Shown here one piece after another: positions 2,783-15,552 of a stretch of DNA of 34,188 bases. The stretch comes from Candidatus Doudnabacteria bacterium (lineage in GTDB: Bacteria; Patescibacteriota; Doudnabacteria; UBA920). The position numbers and the translations under genes were made by a program. Within the stretch, counting starts at the first letter, position 1. Each line of letters begins with the position of its first letter. The notes beneath the pieces were generated by a model that worked only from the letters and a program-made list of their open reading frames with translations, was not told the origin of the DNA and searched no databases. The stretch spans positions 1-34,188 of the forward strand of contig CAIVSE010000022.1 of NCBI GenBank assembly GCA_903908535.1, written 5' to 3'.

Positions 2783-3928
2783 ATGGATAAAGCTTATTTG
2801 CAGGAACTTATTAAAGAAGCCGAGCGCCGCGGCGGGGGATTGGTTATTAATCAAAATGATAAGCCCGCGGTAGTAATCATGACAGTAGATAAATATAATC
2901 AAATCCTTGCCGATAAAACCATGCCTCAAACCCAAACCGAAGATTTCCACAGCAATAACAACAAAACCATTTTAGTTACCGGCGGTGCCGGCTATATTGG
3001 CTCCCACACCTGCCGCGAACTTATCAAGGCCGGCTATAGTGTAGTGGTTTTAGATAACCTGTCCACCGGCAAAAAACAAAATATTCCGCCGGAAGCTAAA
3101 TTTATAGAAGGCGACACGGCCGACAAAAATTTACTTTTAAAGATTTTTACGGATGAACACATATACGCAGTTTTGCACTTCGCGGCCAGTATAGAGGTGG
3201 AAGAATCCGTGCGTGAGCCGCAAAAATATTTGCAAAATAATGCCCTTAACACGGCCAATGTCCTGGCGGCCATGGCCGAAAGCAAGGTCAAGAATTTTAT
3301 TTTTTCTTCCACGGCCGCGGTTTATGGCGACCAGAGCCTGATGCCCATTCCGGAAACAGCCAGAGCCAAACCAAACAACCCCTACGGTTATGCCAAATTT
3401 GTGGCCGAGAAAATTATCAAATACCACGCCCAGTTTATGGGGCTAAAGGCCGTTATCTTCCGTTATTTTAACGCCTGTGGCTGCGACTTCGACGGCACTA
3501 TTGTACCAACCCACCATTCCCACTTAATTCCCATTGTTATGCAGGCCGCGGCAGGGGATATACAGGCCTTAAAAGTTTATGGGAACGATTACAACACGCC
3601 CGACCACACCTGCGTGCGCGATTACGTGCACGTTTTGGATATTGCCCGCGCCCACGTGGTGGCCCTGGAAAAACTGGACGGCATAGAAACCTTTGAGGTT
3701 TTTAACATCGGCACCGGCACGGGCGAGAGCGTTCTGGACGTAGTTAATGCCGCAAAAGAGATCTTAAAAAAAGACATCCCGCTGGAATTTTTGGCCCGCC
3801 GGCCCGGCGACTCGGTTATCACCGTAGCCGACAACCGTAAAATCAGCCAAGCTTGGGGTTTTAAGCCCGAATTCAGCGATTTGGAAACCATAATAAAAAC
3901 CACCTGGAGGCAAATGTACCATGAATAA
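2783..3928 (+). CDS. galE: UDP-glucose 4-epimerase-like enzyme with Phd/YefM-like N-terminal extension
   Basis: Extended short-chain dehydrogenase that would interconvert UDP-glucose and UDP-galactose (or the N-acetyl forms) with bound NAD. Residues from about 60 onward are a full GalE: TGGAGYIGSH Rossmann motif, SSTAAVYG with the catalytic Ser/Thr, YGYAK with the Tyr/Lys pair, and RYFNACG. The first 60 residues are not part of GalE. They read like a Phd/YefM antitoxin N-terminus (LVINQNDKPAVVIMTVDKYNQIL, compare 'I.rnGkPvAVLvs.eeY..L'), joined by a Gln/Thr/Asn-rich linker. No internal ATG with a good ribosome site separates the parts, so a fusion is the simplest reading. It starts an envelope-polysaccharide cluster and overlaps the downstream glycosyltransferase by 8 bases. 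GalE assignment is firm; exact sugar specificity is not. Confidence 0.85.
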   Translation: MDKAYLQELIKEAERRGGGLVINQNDKPAVVIMTVDKYNQILADKTMPQTQTEDFHSNNNKTILVTGGAGYIGSHTCRELIKAGYSVVVLDNLSTGKKQNIPPEAKFIEGDTADKNLLLKIFTDEHIYAVLHFAASIEVEESVREPQKYLQNNALNTANVLAAMAESKVKNFIFSSTAAVYGDQSLMPIPETARAKPNNPYGYAKFVAEKIIKYHAQFMGLKAVIFRYFNACGCDFDGTIVPTHHSHLIPIVMQAAAGDIQALKVYGNDYNTPDHTCVRDYVHVLDIARAHVVALEKLDGIETFEVFNIGTGTGESVLDVVNAAKEILKKDIPLEFLARRPGDSVITVADNRKISQAWGFKPEFSDLETIIKTTWRQMYHE

Positions 3929-8400: not shown

Positions 8401-10005
8401 CTAGCTCGTGGCCGGCAAGTTTGCCTTCCACAAAGCCATAAACCTCCTCTCAAAAATATTTCCAAAACTATTGCCGGTTGTGGGGTCCTCGCCCACAACC
8501 ACCAACTCCTTGAGGATCAACATGAACAGGTATTCGGAGACCTTGTTCTGACCCACCAGCTCGGACCGAACGAAGTCGAGGTGGCCGGAGTTGATTTCGA
8601 TAATGCCCGCGGGGCTGATGCGGGAGTGCCAGCTCTGCTCTTCCTCACTCTTGGGATAAACAAAGTCGACTTGCAGGCCGGGGCGCGGCTTGCTGGCCAT
8701 AACCTGATCTTTGTCGCGCTTGCCTACGGGGATGCCGGAAGCCTTGTTTTTCTTGTGTGTGGCCGCCTGGTCAACCAAAGCGGTCTTGGACAGCTTGCGT
8801 TTGCGTCCGCCCGGCGTGGAAACCTTTGAGGTCTCTTCCTCTTCCGTAACGCTGCCGACGGAGGCTTTAGACATGGCCCGAAGCCGCGGCGGAATGAGGT
8901 GTGGATTCTCCTTAAACAGCAGTTGGATCTTTTTCAAGACCCCCAAAGCTATCCGGTTGAGTTTGTCAGAGCGTTCGCTCTGGTCGAAATTGTCGATTAT
9001 GGGTTTGAGTACTCCCATGACAAAATCCTTTACAACAGAGGCGAAGACCTGACACTGGTCGTCCAGTTGGAAGGAATCCTTGCCGGGATTAACGGTACAG
9101 AATCCCAGCCGGATTTCTCCGTCAAAGAAGCCGCGGTTGATGACGTTTTTGACGTCATCGTCAAGCAGGCTCCTCATAAAAAAGTTGTGCAGCGGCATGG
9201 TATTAACGCCCTGGTGCAGGACGTAAACACGCTGATGCTCTTTGTGAGGTTCGGCCGAATAGTAGAATGCAAATTCGACCTCGCCGAGCGGAGTTTGCTC
9301 CTTTACTGACTGGAGTAAATCGCCGCGGTACAGCACGGGTTTTACCAGGTACTCTTGGGCAGTGGAGCGGGCATCTTTTTTGTAGACGATGCGAACATCC
9401 ACTCCGCGGGTCCGGAGAATCGGATTATAAGCGTCGAGAATTGACCGCTCAATGAGCTTAATGTTGCTCAGCCTCGCCATGGCGATGTCGCTTACTCCCC
9501 GCAGCCACAACATCACGTTGGGTTTAAAGTGGAGCTTGTTGGTGATTTCCTTGCCCTGAAAGGGCTCGGAATGGAGGCTAATGCCGTCACGTTTTGCTAG
9601 CTCGCTTTTTTCCAACCGATGGACCCAAATGCTGGCGGGCTTAGAGGTGAAATCTTTGGCGATCATTTGCCATATTTCGGCAATGGTCATACCGGCCAAA
9701 TTACCGATGCCTTTTTCGCCGATAGCGGAAGCGTCGGCGAGTTTGTTGCTCTGGGCGATGTTTCGGAACTTCGCCGTGACTTCTTCGCAGCTGGCGCTTT
9801 GACCGTCATCAAAAATCTTGATGTAACGTTCAGGGACGTTTATTTCGATCAGGGCGTGCTTAGCGTGTTTGTCGATGGAGTTCTGTAAAGCTTCCAAGAT
9901 GGCCTTGAACGCGTCCCCATAATGCTGGGACAGGTACAAGATAGTGTTGCCTTGGTGGAAGCCAAGCGGGGTTGTGATAAAACCTTCGTTTTTTTCGGGC
10001 ATCAT
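8401..10005 (-). CDS. Stand-alone GHKL-type ATPase (Hsp90/MutL/MORC-like N-domain)
   Basis: 534 residues. The N-terminal 200 residues carry the Bergerat fold motifs: N-box with Glu38, Asn42 and Asp45 (ILEALQNSIDKHA), DDG at 66-68, and the G-loop GEKGIGNLAGM at about 96-106. There is no histidine phosphoacceptor, no MutL endonuclease motif and no topoisomerase domain. The middle part (about 210-370) resembles the transducer-type region of such proteins only in a general way. A charged Lys/Arg linker (about 390-440) leads to a C-terminal domain with WHSRISPAG and ILKELVVVGED that I do not recognise. It is the last gene of a three-gene operon, 10 bases after the XRE regulator. The role is unknown; GHKL proteins of this kind occur in DNA-repair and antiviral modules, which is only a hint. 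Confidence 0.75.
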   Translation of the reverse strand: MMPEKNEGFITTPLGFHQGNTILYLSQHYGDAFKAILEALQNSIDKHAKHALIEINVPERYIKIFDDGQSASCEEVTAKFRNIAQSNKLADASAIGEKGIGNLAGMTIAEIWQMIAKDFTSKPASIWVHRLEKSELAKRDGISLHSEPFQGKEITNKLHFKPNVMLWLRGVSDIAMARLSNIKLIERSILDAYNPILRTRGVDVRIVYKKDARSTAQEYLVKPVLYRGDLLQSVKEQTPLGEVEFAFYYSAEPHKEHQRVYVLHQGVNTMPLHNFFMRSLLDDDVKNVINRGFFDGEIRLGFCTVNPGKDSFQLDDQCQVFASVVKDFVMGVLKPIIDNFDQSERSDKLNRIALGVLKKIQLLFKENPHLIPPRLRAMSKASVGSVTEEEETSKVSTPGGRKRKLSKTALVDQAATHKKNKASGIPVGKRDKDQVMASKPRPGLQVDFVYPKSEEEQSWHSRISPAGIIEINSGHLDFVRSELVGQNKVSEYLFMLILKELVVVGEDPTTGNSFGNIFERRFMALWKANLPATS

Positions 10006-10015
10006 TTTCTAGTAC

Positions 10016-10570
10016 CTATCCTTTCGGTTTTTTTTCAGAGTTCAGTTCACCTTCGCGGGTCACAACCTCCAGGGCCTTTTCATTTCGCATGGCCCGGATT
10101 AAGGAGGAGAACCATTCAAAGTCGGGACCGAGAGAGGTGCGAAAACTTTCGCGTTCTCTTGGCCCGGCGGCCAAAAACCATTCCAGGTAGTCTCGCAGGC
10201 TGCGGATCAGTTCTCGGCTGCGAAAAATCCGCAGTTTCAAATCCATCTCGTCAGTCTGCTTCCCGGTATCATTTGCTGGTTTACTACTTGGCCTAACCAG
10301 ACGTTTGATCTGGCTTACAATTGGGCCGGCAGAAATATCTTCGGCTTTGGGAATTATCGGGTCGGTGTTGGTGCGACCAGCTTCCAAGGGCGGGATTTTG
10401 TCGCCAAATCTGGCAGTCAGTTTAGTGTGAGTGCTCAATCTGGCTTTCTTATTGTTTCCGCTCAGCAAAGAACTCATTGTCTTTCGGGGAATTCCGACTT
10501 CTTGCGCTAAACGGGTGATGTTCAGACCCTCTTGGGCCATGATTTCTTTTAACGCTTCGTCCAGTTTCAT
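10016..10570 (-). CDS. XRE-type helix-turn-helix regulator with helical C-terminal domain
   Basis: ATG 10570 is preferred to the GTG at 10576 because GAGGAG sits 5 bases upstream, inside the end of the previous gene; the GTG would overlap that stop as GTGA. Residues about 1-55 form an XRE/Cro-like domain (ITRLAQEVGIPRKTMSSLLSGNNKK). A low-complexity linker follows, then a helical C-terminus (LIRSLRDYLEWFLAAGPRERESF) I cannot assign. Position between two operon genes, and a palindromic operator at the operon promoter, suggest it represses its own operon. It could instead be an adaptor for the ATPase. Confidence 0.7.
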   Translation of the reverse strand: MKLDEALKEIMAQEGLNITRLAQEVGIPRKTMSSLLSGNNKKARLSTHTKLTARFGDKIPPLEAGRTNTDPIIPKAEDISAGPIVSQIKRLVRPSSKPANDTGKQTDEMDLKLRIFRSRELIRSLRDYLEWFLAAGPRERESFRTSLGPDFEWFSSLIRAMRNEKALEVVTREGELNSEKKPKG

Positions 10571-10572
10571 GC

Positions 10573-11376
10573 TCACTCCTCGCCTTTCTGGGAAGCATAG
10601 GCTTCTATGCTGGTGCGAAATCTTTTTTTCTCATCGATATCCGCGTTGATTTTTTTGACCGTTTGTTCAAGCTCCTGTTCCAGAGCCAGAATTTCTCCGT
10701 CGATCCTTTTCAGAATCTTACTCACAGAAATTTTACCCAAATCGTGCTTGGCTTTTTCGTCTTTGTGAGCAAACGGCGTGGTTTGGGGCTCGAAACTAAT
10801 AGTCATTCCCTTTCCGGCGCCGAGTCTGTGGATTGAGCACAGTCCTTTCTTCTCAAACTGTCTCAAAGCATCCCAGGGAAAACTTTTTATTACGTGCAGT
10901 CGCTCCTGAACCTCGCGAGCCGAATCCGCATTAAAGAGGATTGAAGGCCCGACTTTTTGCTCCATAAGAAGAGCCCAAAACTCCGCACGCTTTCCGGTGA
11001 GCGATTCCCAGCCGGTCTTGATGTTGGTTTTGGGCGGGGACGAGGGGAGTCCAAAAAGTTCAAAGGACTTGTGGGTGAATTCCCAAACCCCTGGCTCTGA
11101 CGCTTTTTGTACCAGCTTGAATCTTGCCAAGTGCCAGAGATTGGCATCGTTTATACCAATTCCTTTGAGCCGTTTCCCGATGCTGTGAGCTTGGGGAAAA
11201 GTGCCTTGTTCAATACTAAACCGCAGCATCTCCTGAAAAGCCCGGAGATATTTGGGAGTTAAACCCCAATTTTCTCCCGTGACTTCGCCGTTTTTAACCC
11301 GCTCGTAAAATTCTGTGAGCGGGTCGTTTTTTGGTGCCGTCTCTACTATAGGCGTTTCCGCCGTATTTGTCTGCAT
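10573..11376 (-). CDS. Unknown protein with C-terminal coiled coil, first gene of GHKL operon
   Basis: 267 residues, not recognised. A strong AAGGAGG lies 4 bases before the ATG. Residues about 18-110 are helical and could hold a winged-helix-like unit (NLWHLARFKLVQKASEPGVWEFT); a second such segment is at 140-200 (FPWDALRQFEKKGLCSIHRLGAGKGM). The last 55 residues are a coiled coil (ILKRIDGEILALEQELEQTVKKI). No catalytic motif or signal peptide is seen. The arrangement suggests a DNA- or partner-binding scaffold working with the XRE protein and the GHKL ATPase. Confidence 0.65.
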   Translation of the reverse strand: MQTNTAETPIVETAPKNDPLTEFYERVKNGEVTGENWGLTPKYLRAFQEMLRFSIEQGTFPQAHSIGKRLKGIGINDANLWHLARFKLVQKASEPGVWEFTHKSFELFGLPSSPPKTNIKTGWESLTGKRAEFWALLMEQKVGPSILFNADSAREVQERLHVIKSFPWDALRQFEKKGLCSIHRLGAGKGMTISFEPQTTPFAHKDEKAKHDLGKISVSKILKRIDGEILALEQELEQTVKKINADIDEKKRFRTSIEAYASQKGEE

Positions 11377-11399
11377 AGTGCCTCCTTGAAATTCATATT

Positions 11400-11435
11400 A
11401 ACATATCACAAATGGCTAATTGTGTCAATATTGAC
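11400..11435 (-). promoter_or_regulatory. Promoter and operator-like palindromes of the GHKL operon
   Basis: On the minus strand TTGACA (11423-11428), 17-bp spacer, TATGTT (11400-11405). The perfect 12-bp palindrome GTCAATATTGAC (11424-11435) overlaps the -35, and an imperfect one, CACAAAT-ggct-AATTGTG (11407-11424), fills the spacer. Both are well placed for repression by the XRE protein of this operon. Confidence 0.7.
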
Positions 11436-11457: not shown

Positions 11458-11497
11458 AAAAAAAGCCGTCCACACAAATTTTATACGTGTGGACGGG
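11458..11497 (-). terminator. Terminator of the 435-residue orphan gene
   Basis: Perfect 10-bp stem CCGTCCACAC with GTGTGGACGG, followed on the minus strand by eight T. It separates the orphan gene from the operon promoter downstream. Confidence 0.85.
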
Positions 11498-11518: not shown

Positions 11519-12826
11519 TTAGTTGTTTTTGCGGCGTGCGACCGCAATGTGGGCGGCGGCAGATTTGCGAATCTTTTCATTTTCGCTAAGGCTTTTTGGC
11601 AGGAGCGCCAAAATTTCCTTAACCGTGTAATCACGGTGTTGCTTGGCAAGAAGTTTGATTTTACCGATTCCTTCTTGCGTGAGTTCATTCTCATGGATGT
11701 AACGAGTCGTCTTTATGGCCATCTGCATCTCCTTGTTTTGGGTAACTTCTTTGTGTCTGAACCTTAAGTACAATCCAGCATCGTCCCAAAGGATAATATT
11801 CCTGTCCTTCGGGATAATGGTTACAGTTTCATCTATTTTGTGTTCAGCGCCCTCCTCTGTGATATAACTAAATGGAGCGGACAGCATTAAAGCGCAGGAT
11901 TTTTCTAGCCACCACTTGGCGCTAATCGGTGTTTGTCTGACTGTAAAACGCGCAAAGTGGCAGAGCTGTGATAGCGATGTTTCGTTTTTATAAACAAGTC
12001 GTTGCAGGGAGCTTATATCCAGCAATTGCTGCACCCAGTGATTTGCCAAATTTTGGACTAGTTTCAGATTTGCGGATCTAAACTCTTCGACAAAACCTAG
12101 TAAGTCCTCTAAACGTAAGGGTGCCTGACACTTTATTGATATAAAATCCCATAGTTTGGTTACGGCGGCATTCCAGTGCTGGAAGCCATAGGGAGAGGAC
12201 TGCTCGGCAGTTGCTGAAATTACGAAGCCGTTCTCCATTATACTGTAGAGCCAAAAAATGTCGCGTAATGCCAGGTGAAAAGGTTCGGTGTAGCCAGCAC
12301 GTTCGTAACGTCTTGACAGCGAATAAAAAACCGGCAAAATATCCTCGGGCGAAATCAGCACAAATATCGCTAATGCCCGTATGCCTTCCCAAATCATTTC
12401 TGTATCGCGTCCCACGCTGGAATATGTCGCCACGACAGTTCCGGAGTTTTTCAGGCAGGAGCAGAGCACCTCACCCATAACTGAATGGGTTTGGCTTAAG
12501 TAGCTGCCCATAACATCCAGGTTGAATAAGCAAAAGGTTTTTTCCGGCTTTATGATTTTTGGCAATTCGTCGTAGAGAAAGCCGTGGTGAATCTTAACCC
12601 CCCATCCCTGAGTTTTTTGCCATTCAGTTATAGATTGGTCAGACTCTAACGAATTAACGTGCCCCCTTGTAAAACCAGCTTCATCCATTAAATATAGCTC
12701 GCTGGGGCTTTTGCCTAGCAGGCCGATGACGTGGTTGGTGCGGATTTGCTCTGTAGAGAGCCAAGAGGGGATAATGCGACGGTAAAAATAATTTCGGGCA
12801 AACCGCTTACCGGCCGAATCTCTCAT
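11519..12826 (-). CDS. Unknown 435-residue protein, possibly Rossmann/methyltransferase-like
   Basis: Not recognised with certainty. The N-terminal 170 residues alternate strands and helices (ELYLMDEAGFTRGH; FCLFNLDVMGSYLS; NSGTVVATYSSVGRD) in a way that recalls a SAM-dependent methyltransferase lacking a classical glycine-rich motif I. The middle is helical and rich in aromatic residues. The C-terminus is a basic helical tail (KEILALLPKSLSENEKIRKSA) of a type that often binds nucleic acid. AAGGAGG lies about 9 bases before the ATG. It has its own promoter and terminator, so it is a neighbour of the GHKL operon rather than part of it; joint function is possible but not shown. Confidence 0.6.
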   Translation of the reverse strand: MRDSAGKRFARNYFYRRIIPSWLSTEQIRTNHVIGLLGKSPSELYLMDEAGFTRGHVNSLESDQSITEWQKTQGWGVKIHHGFLYDELPKIIKPEKTFCLFNLDVMGSYLSQTHSVMGEVLCSCLKNSGTVVATYSSVGRDTEMIWEGIRALAIFVLISPEDILPVFYSLSRRYERAGYTEPFHLALRDIFWLYSIMENGFVISATAEQSSPYGFQHWNAAVTKLWDFISIKCQAPLRLEDLLGFVEEFRSANLKLVQNLANHWVQQLLDISSLQRLVYKNETSLSQLCHFARFTVRQTPISAKWWLEKSCALMLSAPFSYITEEGAEHKIDETVTIIPKDRNIILWDDAGLYLRFRHKEVTQNKEMQMAIKTTRYIHENELTQEGIGKIKLLAKQHRDYTVKEILALLPKSLSENEKIRKSAAAHIAVARRKNN

Positions 12827-14562: not shown

Positions 14563-15552
14563 ATGATGAATGAATCCCCTAGGCCCATAATCAGTCATTT
14601 CACTAATTTTTTCGATTATTGCGATGTTGTAAAAGGTTTATCTTCCAAGTCGGTTGAAAACTATGGACGGTTTTTAATTCCGTTTAAAAATTGGTTAATT
14701 AAAGAAAAACTGGAAAATCTTAAACCTCACGAGTTAACCAGTGAACACATCTACCAGTACAGGCTATACCTCTCCAGGCAGCTAAGCGCTAAGGACGGCA
14801 AAAACTTAAAAAAGAGCACCCAGAATTATTATCTTATTGCCTTAAGGTCGCTGCTAATTTATTTTACTAAAAATGATATCTTAAGTTTGCCGGCGGACAA
14901 GATTAGCTTAGCCAAAGACGAAAAGGTTAAGAAGGTTAAATTTTTGAATTTGGACCAGTTGGAAAAATTGCTTCTCTCCCCTGCTACGGATACAATGAGC
15001 GGCCTGCGGGACCGCGCCATTTTGGAAGTTTTATTTAGCACGGGTCTGCGCGTGGGAGAATTAGCTTCGCTGAACCGCGACCAGATTAACTTGCCGTATA
15101 TTAAAAAGAACGCTATTAAAGAATTGGAATTACCCATAACCGGTAAGGGCGGCTACATCCGTACTGTTTATTTTTCCCAGCGGGCAATTTCGGCGTTAGA
15201 CAAATATATAACCAACCGCGCGGATTTAGACAAAGCTTTGTTTGTAAATTTTAAAAAAGATAATGGCCAGGATACCAAAAGGTTAACTATCCGTTCCATC
15301 GAACGGATTATTAAAAAATATGTGTGGTTGGCAGGGTTGCCGGTGGACACCACGCCCCACACTCTGCGCCATTCTTTTGCCACAGATTTGCTGGAGCAAG
15401 GCGTGGATTTAAGGACTATCCAGGAATTTTTGGGTCACAGGAATATTGTTACGACGCAAATTTATACCCACGTGACTAACAAGCACCTCAAAGACGTACA
15501 TATGTCGTTCCATAGCGGTAAAAAATTAAAAAGTAAAAATAATGAAAAATAA
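14563..15552 (+). CDS. xerC: Xer-type tyrosine recombinase
   Basis: 329 residues with an N-terminal SAM-like DNA-binding domain (about 10-110) and the catalytic domain. All catalytic residues are visible: Arg in STGLRVGEL, Lys in GKGG, His and Arg in HTLRHSFAT, His in LGHRNIVTT, and Tyr in TQIYTHV. Such enzymes resolve chromosome dimers at dif or integrate mobile DNA. Length and close spacing of motifs fit Xer better than phage integrases. It begins ATGATG with a leader of only a few bases. A dif-like 28-mer sits just upstream and a broken paralogue just downstream. XerC versus XerD cannot be decided from the sequence alone. Confidence 0.85.
   Translation: MMNESPRPIISHFTNFFDYCDVVKGLSSKSVENYGRFLIPFKNWLIKEKLENLKPHELTSEHIYQYRLYLSRQLSAKDGKNLKKSTQNYYLIALRSLLIYFTKNDILSLPADKISLAKDEKVKKVKFLNLDQLEKLLLSPATDTMSGLRDRAILEVLFSTGLRVGELASLNRDQINLPYIKKNAIKELELPITGKGGYIRTVYFSQRAISALDKYITNRADLDKALFVNFKKDNGQDTKRLTIRSIERIIKKYVWLAGLPVDTTPHTLRHSFATDLLEQGVDLRTIQEFLGHRNIVTTQIYTHVTNKHLKDVHMSFHSGKKLKSKNNEK

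Follow-up and report, generated by a model that had tools for sequence, protein, structure and literature searches.

The operon and its transcription signals

The window considered here is the whole stretch of DNA that was analysed, a complete contig of 34,188 nt from a Patescibacteria MAG of 1.04 Mb (the named genomes of its phylum met in this analysis are a Saccharibacteria and a Parcubacteria MAG), and on its minus strand, at 8401-11435, lies a discrete operon of three genes. A 267-aa first gene (10573-11376) is followed by an XRE/HTH gene for 186 aa (10016-10576), which starts with GTG and overlaps the upstream stop by 4 nt, and then, 10 nt past the XRE stop, by a GHKL (Bergerat-fold) ATPase gene for 534 aa (8401-10005). 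A previous sequence-only reading of this DNA had placed the three genes under one promoter, and the signals agree: all three minus-strand frames are open, a sigma-70-type promoter precedes them (11428-11400; TTGACA-17-TATGTT, with TG before the second hexamer as in an extended -10), and an intrinsic terminator with a 13-bp stem and a T run lies just past the ATPase stop (8389-8360, minus strand). Judged by these consensus signals, the operon is a bounded transcription unit.

Upstream of the operon, on the same strand, a 435-aa protein (11519-12826) matches no family in Pfam, NCBIfam or PADLOC. A 10-bp inverted repeat with a T run in its sequence (11466-11496) lies between this gene and the operon promoter and is probably a terminator that parts the two. 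Moreover, a perfect 12-bp palindrome, GTCAATATTGAC (11424-11435), overlaps the -35 hexamer and had been taken as a sign of self-control. The palindrome is exact and sits where claimed, but shuffling the promoter region yields its equal in 82 of 2000 trials (about 4%) and the whole window holds 17 palindromes of this length, so that by itself it is weak evidence, and we treat it simply as a weak candidate operator.

The GHKL ATPase

Three domains can be placed on the ATPase, all on the minus strand: the GHKL domain (9589-9909, about residues 33-139; PF13589), an S5-like domain assigned from motif alignment and low-confidence fold matches (9046-9528, about residues 160-320), and a C-terminal 'IN..H' domain recognised by its signature (8413-8688, about residues 440-531), which is also common to several other Patescibacteria GHKL proteins. 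The match to PF13589 (HATPase_c_3) lies above the curated cut-off (E 9.9e-10, 39 bits), and a profile of the protein's relatives, with the window copy left out, recovers it at 93.9 bits (E 6.8e-28). Of the ATP-binding motifs, which had been described as intact, the N-box (E-x-x-x-N, then D; E38, N42, D45) and the G2 loop GxxGxG (G96, G99, G101) are kept, but the G1 box DxGxG reads DDGQS. Serine thus replaces the second glycine, which is glycine in all relatives aligned, and ATP turnover could therefore be impaired. In the alignment, the basic S5-like residue is the lysine of 'NPGKDSF' in the window protein and arginine in its relatives.

The GHKL-S5 architecture is common to the ATPase modules of MutL, MORC and topoisomerases (PMC2292703), and the window protein appears to share it with MutL, HtpG/Hsp90 and GyrB/ParE. 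A match to a housekeeping family such as HtpG or MutL had been named in advance as a result that would speak against an undescribed module; the NCBIfam models of HtpG, MutL and gyrase all miss the protein. Only sacsin-like and BbrUII-like ATPase domains match it in NCBIfam, below threshold, and in PADLOC it matches TmtA and a type II restriction enzyme over the generic domain only. No family in PADLOC, Pfam or NCBIfam describes the operon. The structure prediction that had been suggested gave a poor model (pLDDT 38), which matches Hsp90, SMCHD1, MLH1 and GyrB over GHKL and S5 with Hsp90 proteins first; since this model and that of the first gene (pLDDT 50) are both poor, fold matches serve here as consistency only.

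Relatives and the HTH-GHKL pair

Among 49 genomes of the order to which the window belongs, one has the intact ATPase and two others (G040 and G003) have relics. Full-length relatives were found elsewhere in the phylum in five genomes, namely G382, G334 (Saccharibacteria UBA6572), G054 (a groundwater Parcubacteria MAG), G535 and G964, and a further copy in G411 is cut at a contig end. The reading frame of the G054 GHKL gene (L015:7695-9410) shifts close to the N-terminus, through either an assembly error or a real change. A tree of the six placeable ATPases together with restriction-modification (R-M)-linked Patescibacteria GHKLs, MutL and a second Patescibacteria GHKL clade unites the window ATPase and its five divergent relatives in one clade (support 97/99), with the R-M-linked proteins, the tested MutL and the second clade all outside it. 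The window ATPase shares just 18-22% identity with the others, stands on a long branch and has the lowest conservation in the clade.

Directly upstream of all six clade ATPases, on the same strand, lies an HTH gene, and the contig-end copy of G411 is arranged likewise, so HTH and GHKL genes occur together in seven of the seven genomes found. Because an HTH gene directly precedes every clade ATPase, the HTH-GHKL pair is the stable unit, not the trio that had been proposed: of that expected co-travel the pair is upheld, and the first gene is missing or substituted elsewhere, save for a decayed copy in G040. G964 provides a fair test of the pairing, since it was found in a different class by a five-member profile search and its neighbours, which include the HTH gene, were read only afterwards. 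The sample is partial, with the pair in only seven genomes and relics in two more; the recurrence of the pair in distant relatives nevertheless means that a two-part machine is probably real. We found no description of an HTH-GHKL pair in the open-access literature, and with no library family for the operon and an ATPase distinct from HtpG, MutL and gyrase, the module can be called undescribed, as had been supposed.

The pairing does not extend to a rule that all Patescibacteria GHKLs adjoin HTH genes; this was rejected, as the neighbours in other clades are Fic or nucleotidyltransferase genes or show no consistency. For example, in the second clade (L061, L062, L063 and L064; about 500-550 aa) the copy in the window's own genome adjoins a Fic-like protein, and that of G330 lies near nucleotidyltransferase/HEPN-like genes. 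Another GHKL ATPase, of 514 aa, in G123 (L016:7278-13085) is preceded by two large proteins with apparent repeated winged-helix units and coiled coils.

The first gene survives in the G040 relic (L010:11303-12167) as its N-terminal portion, fused to GHKL residues 332-530, the middle of the operon being gone, and in G003 the ATPase C-terminus stands alone. It might be supposed that the window copy too is decaying or non-catalytic and has persisted by chance, given its serine in the G1 box, its long branch, its lowest conservation in the clade and the two relics in its own order. We consider this very improbable: the three open frames, overlapping starts, consensus promoter and terminator are all present, and the N-box, the G2 loop and the basic S5 residue (as lysine) are kept.

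The XRE/HTH partner

The second gene product matches PF13443 (HTH_26) above cut-off (E 1.4e-5), in agreement with its earlier assignment as an XRE protein. Its C-terminal helical segment (10061-10225, minus strand; about residues 118-172) had been called an orphan, but it resembles the C-termini of the GHKL-linked HTH proteins. The HTH proteins of G334, G535, G411 and G054 form one family, which G964 joins at E 1.9e-9, and they carry the C-terminal motif ER..lR.l.G.d.mF..SN....LCSE.AR (in a looser form, ER..fR...G.d..F..SN...lCSE.AR); the window protein ends in PRERESFRTSLGPDFEWFSSLIRAMRNEKALEV and a short tail. Against a PSSM of the five partner C-termini the window C-terminus scores 32.5, a value reached by 0 of 1000 shuffles, and among 322 ORFs outside the HTH family it ranks best, with the HTH protein of G382 next. 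A whole-protein profile of the five partners recovers the window protein at E 0.0033, but a broader ten-sequence profile does not, and full-length hhalign against the family is not significant; significance is confined to the C-terminal and five-sequence profile tests. A C-terminal segment common to the window protein and the HTH partners is thus likely, if unproved.

The HTH profile, run over 334 Saccharibacteria-class genomes, additionally returned five HTH genes that adjoin DGQ-R proteins instead of GHKLs (L110:2554-4610, L112:2527-4316, L113:3041-5016, L114:2871-4644 and L111:4337-5900), so the family serves at least two partners. The HTH proteins of these pairs are homologous to those studied here and the partner differs; the DGQ-R proteins are weakly similar to DndB, DpdB and GmrSD-N, and in the genomes carrying such pairs no GHKL of the window clade was found.

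This second partner bears on a second rival explanation, in which the GHKL protein is a nucleotide-dependent switch on an XRE transcription factor, a signalling or chaperone-like regulator that does not clamp DNA. The strict HTH-GHKL pairing would suit such a regulator, as would the Hsp90 proteins heading the structural matches, and the occurrence of the HTH family beside DndB/ParB-like DGQ-R proteins points to a DNA-binding factor whose control subunits can be exchanged. However, no receiver, phosphotransfer or sensor domain is present, GHKL-S5 characterises both Hsp90 and ATPases that act on DNA, and the structural ranking comes from a low-confidence model, which leaves the switch unlikely.

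The first gene

Searches of Pfam, PADLOC and NCBIfam return no family for the 267-aa first gene product, which accordingly is as unrecognised as had been stated. Its designation as a coiled-coil protein holds for the C-terminal helix of 47 residues (218-264; 10585-10725, minus strand), which is well scored in an otherwise low-confidence single-sequence model. In the same model this helix is preceded by two helix/strand units in winged-helix order (about 11077-11256 and 10792-10989), an addition to the earlier description, and the product is probably a tandem winged helix with a C-terminal coiled coil. Its sole sequence relative (p 0.003) is the decayed copy in G040, a genome of the same family. 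In G382 and G054, genes resembling wHTH/coiled-coil proteins follow the ATPase gene; homology of these to the window first gene was rejected (p 0.25-0.63). Since its one copy elsewhere in the family is decayed and the wHTH/coiled-coil genes beside two other members are unrelated to it, comparison of sequences indicates that the first gene is accessory rather than core.

Genomic context and spread

In at least seven same-family genomes a backbone running from cysteine desulfurase to pilin, M23 and gltX is conserved, together with WecG, def and fmt where the compared stretch reaches, and window positions 1-12.8 kb, including the operon, are missing at that place. The operon is therefore lineage-variable yet sits beside housekeeping genes. 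An XerC/D-like tyrosine recombinase (14563-15552) lies between the cysteine desulfurase and pilin genes of the window and has no tblastn match at that place in the compared same-family genomes. An integrative element was considered and rejected, the recombinase being of XerC/D-like type and the region having no flanking direct repeats. Elsewhere in the window, residues 4-48 of an NAD-dependent epimerase (2783-3928) resemble the Phd/YefM antitoxin (E 1.5e-6, just below the curated cut-off).

In two Saccharibacteria genera the pair occupies one locus, between groEL and a sugar-phosphate isomerase gene. Their GHKL genes (L014:8347-10050 and L055:6109-7809) share 87% protein identity with dS 0.68, while dS is saturated for groEL, the HTH gene and the downstream isomerase gene, and the high-identity block has the extent of the ATPase gene. 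This points to the ATPase gene alone having apparently been exchanged in place between the two genera, and a dN/dS of 0.13 for this gene indicates purifying selection.

Such a distribution, together with kinship to paraMORCs, makes phage or plasmid defence the main rival explanation: the GHKL protein would act as sensor or effector, in the manner of paraMORC, MzaB or TmtA, and the XRE protein as repressor or activator. Presence in about 1% of genomes, the decayed copies in G040 and G003, the absence of the 1-12.8 kb region beside a conserved backbone and the apparent swap between Saccharibacteria genera all fit a conflict gene, and do not prove one; R-M and Shedu systems linked to GHKL proteins have been described (PMC2292703, PMC12137116). 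On the other hand, the Saccharibacteria copies keep a constant place, and beside the window operon and every other clade member no effector, nuclease, methylase, helicase, NADase or membrane partner was found, whereas helicase, methylase or restriction-nuclease genes do adjoin other Patescibacteria GHKLs. Single-sequence scans of genome contigs, viral contigs, phages and plasmids likewise gave no convincing relatives of the window proteins.

Among known systems, prokaryotic MORC/paraMORC proteins (Iyer, Abhiman and Aravind 2008, PMC2292703) are alike in their N-terminal GHKL and apparently S5-like domains, C-terminal extension, patchy distribution and probable link to DNA, but the window operon has no SFII helicase, methylase, Vsr or restriction nuclease, its partner being an XRE/HTH protein, and its ATPase falls in a clade separate from the R-M-linked Patescibacteria GHKLs tested. 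The weak GHKL-domain similarity to type II restriction-enzyme models and to the MZA ATPases MzaB and TmtA (PADLOC; NCBIfam NF041932) concerns the generic ATPase domain only: MzaB/TmtA matches span about 60-110 residues at 12-21 bits (19.9 bits to TmtA and no match to MzaB for the window protein), none is full-length, and no MZA/Tmt partner genes lie beside the operon. Type II toxin-antitoxin loci with an XRE antitoxin share the XRE protein, the operon and a possible operator at -35, but searches returned no toxin family, the other products here being an ATPase and a probable DNA-binding protein. The conflict role proposed in the sequence-only reading thus finds no backing in the housekeeping surroundings, the neighbouring genes or the viral, phage and plasmid scans, and we regard defence as possible but rather doubtful.

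A putative DNA clamp guided by an HTH protein

The gene order, the core ATP-binding motifs and the conserved pairing lead us to favour, tentatively and with somewhat less than even confidence, an ATP-driven two-part DNA-binding machine in which the XRE/HTH protein recruits a GHKL-S5 ATPase that closes on DNA; by analogy, a MORC/MutL-like clamp guided by the HTH protein is the most likely form. The XRE/HTH protein would bind DNA, its own promoter probably among the targets, and may recruit the ATPase through its conserved C-terminal helical segment, which a weak but tested similarity suggests is common to the HTH partners. On binding ATP, the ATPase would dimerise and close on DNA as MutL and MORC do; MORC2, for instance, clamps DNA and compacts it while hydrolysing ATP (PMC12216690). 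Closure could compact or silence the marked DNA, or register foreign DNA, and the first gene product may be an accessory DNA-binding subunit or adaptor used in this lineage only. Docking, clamping, autoregulation and outcome are what we infer from these likenesses, with DNA binding by the ATPase assumed. Against the clamp speak the 18-22% identity, long branch and G1 serine of the window ATPase, the borderline XRE similarity, the DGQ-R pairs in genomes where no clade GHKL was found and the pLDDT of 38. An extension to a Patescibacteria-wide class of DNA-clamping ATPases, loaded by the docking domain of an adaptor for MORC-like silencing while the adaptor family alternatively serves ParB/DndB-like DGQ-R proteins, is more speculative and on balance improbable.

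Significance

Prokaryotic MORC-like and paraMORC ATPases are known mainly from restriction-modification loci; what directs them to their targets is the question at stake. A clade that has one DNA-binding partner and lacks a nuclease would isolate this question in a two-gene system. It also offers testable partners: an HTH family whose C-terminal domain is a candidate for docking, and the two proteins with which this family alternatively pairs. If silencing or recognition of foreign DNA should prove true, it would amount to a strategy of defence, or to one resembling chromatin, in bacteria whose genomes are about 1 Mb.
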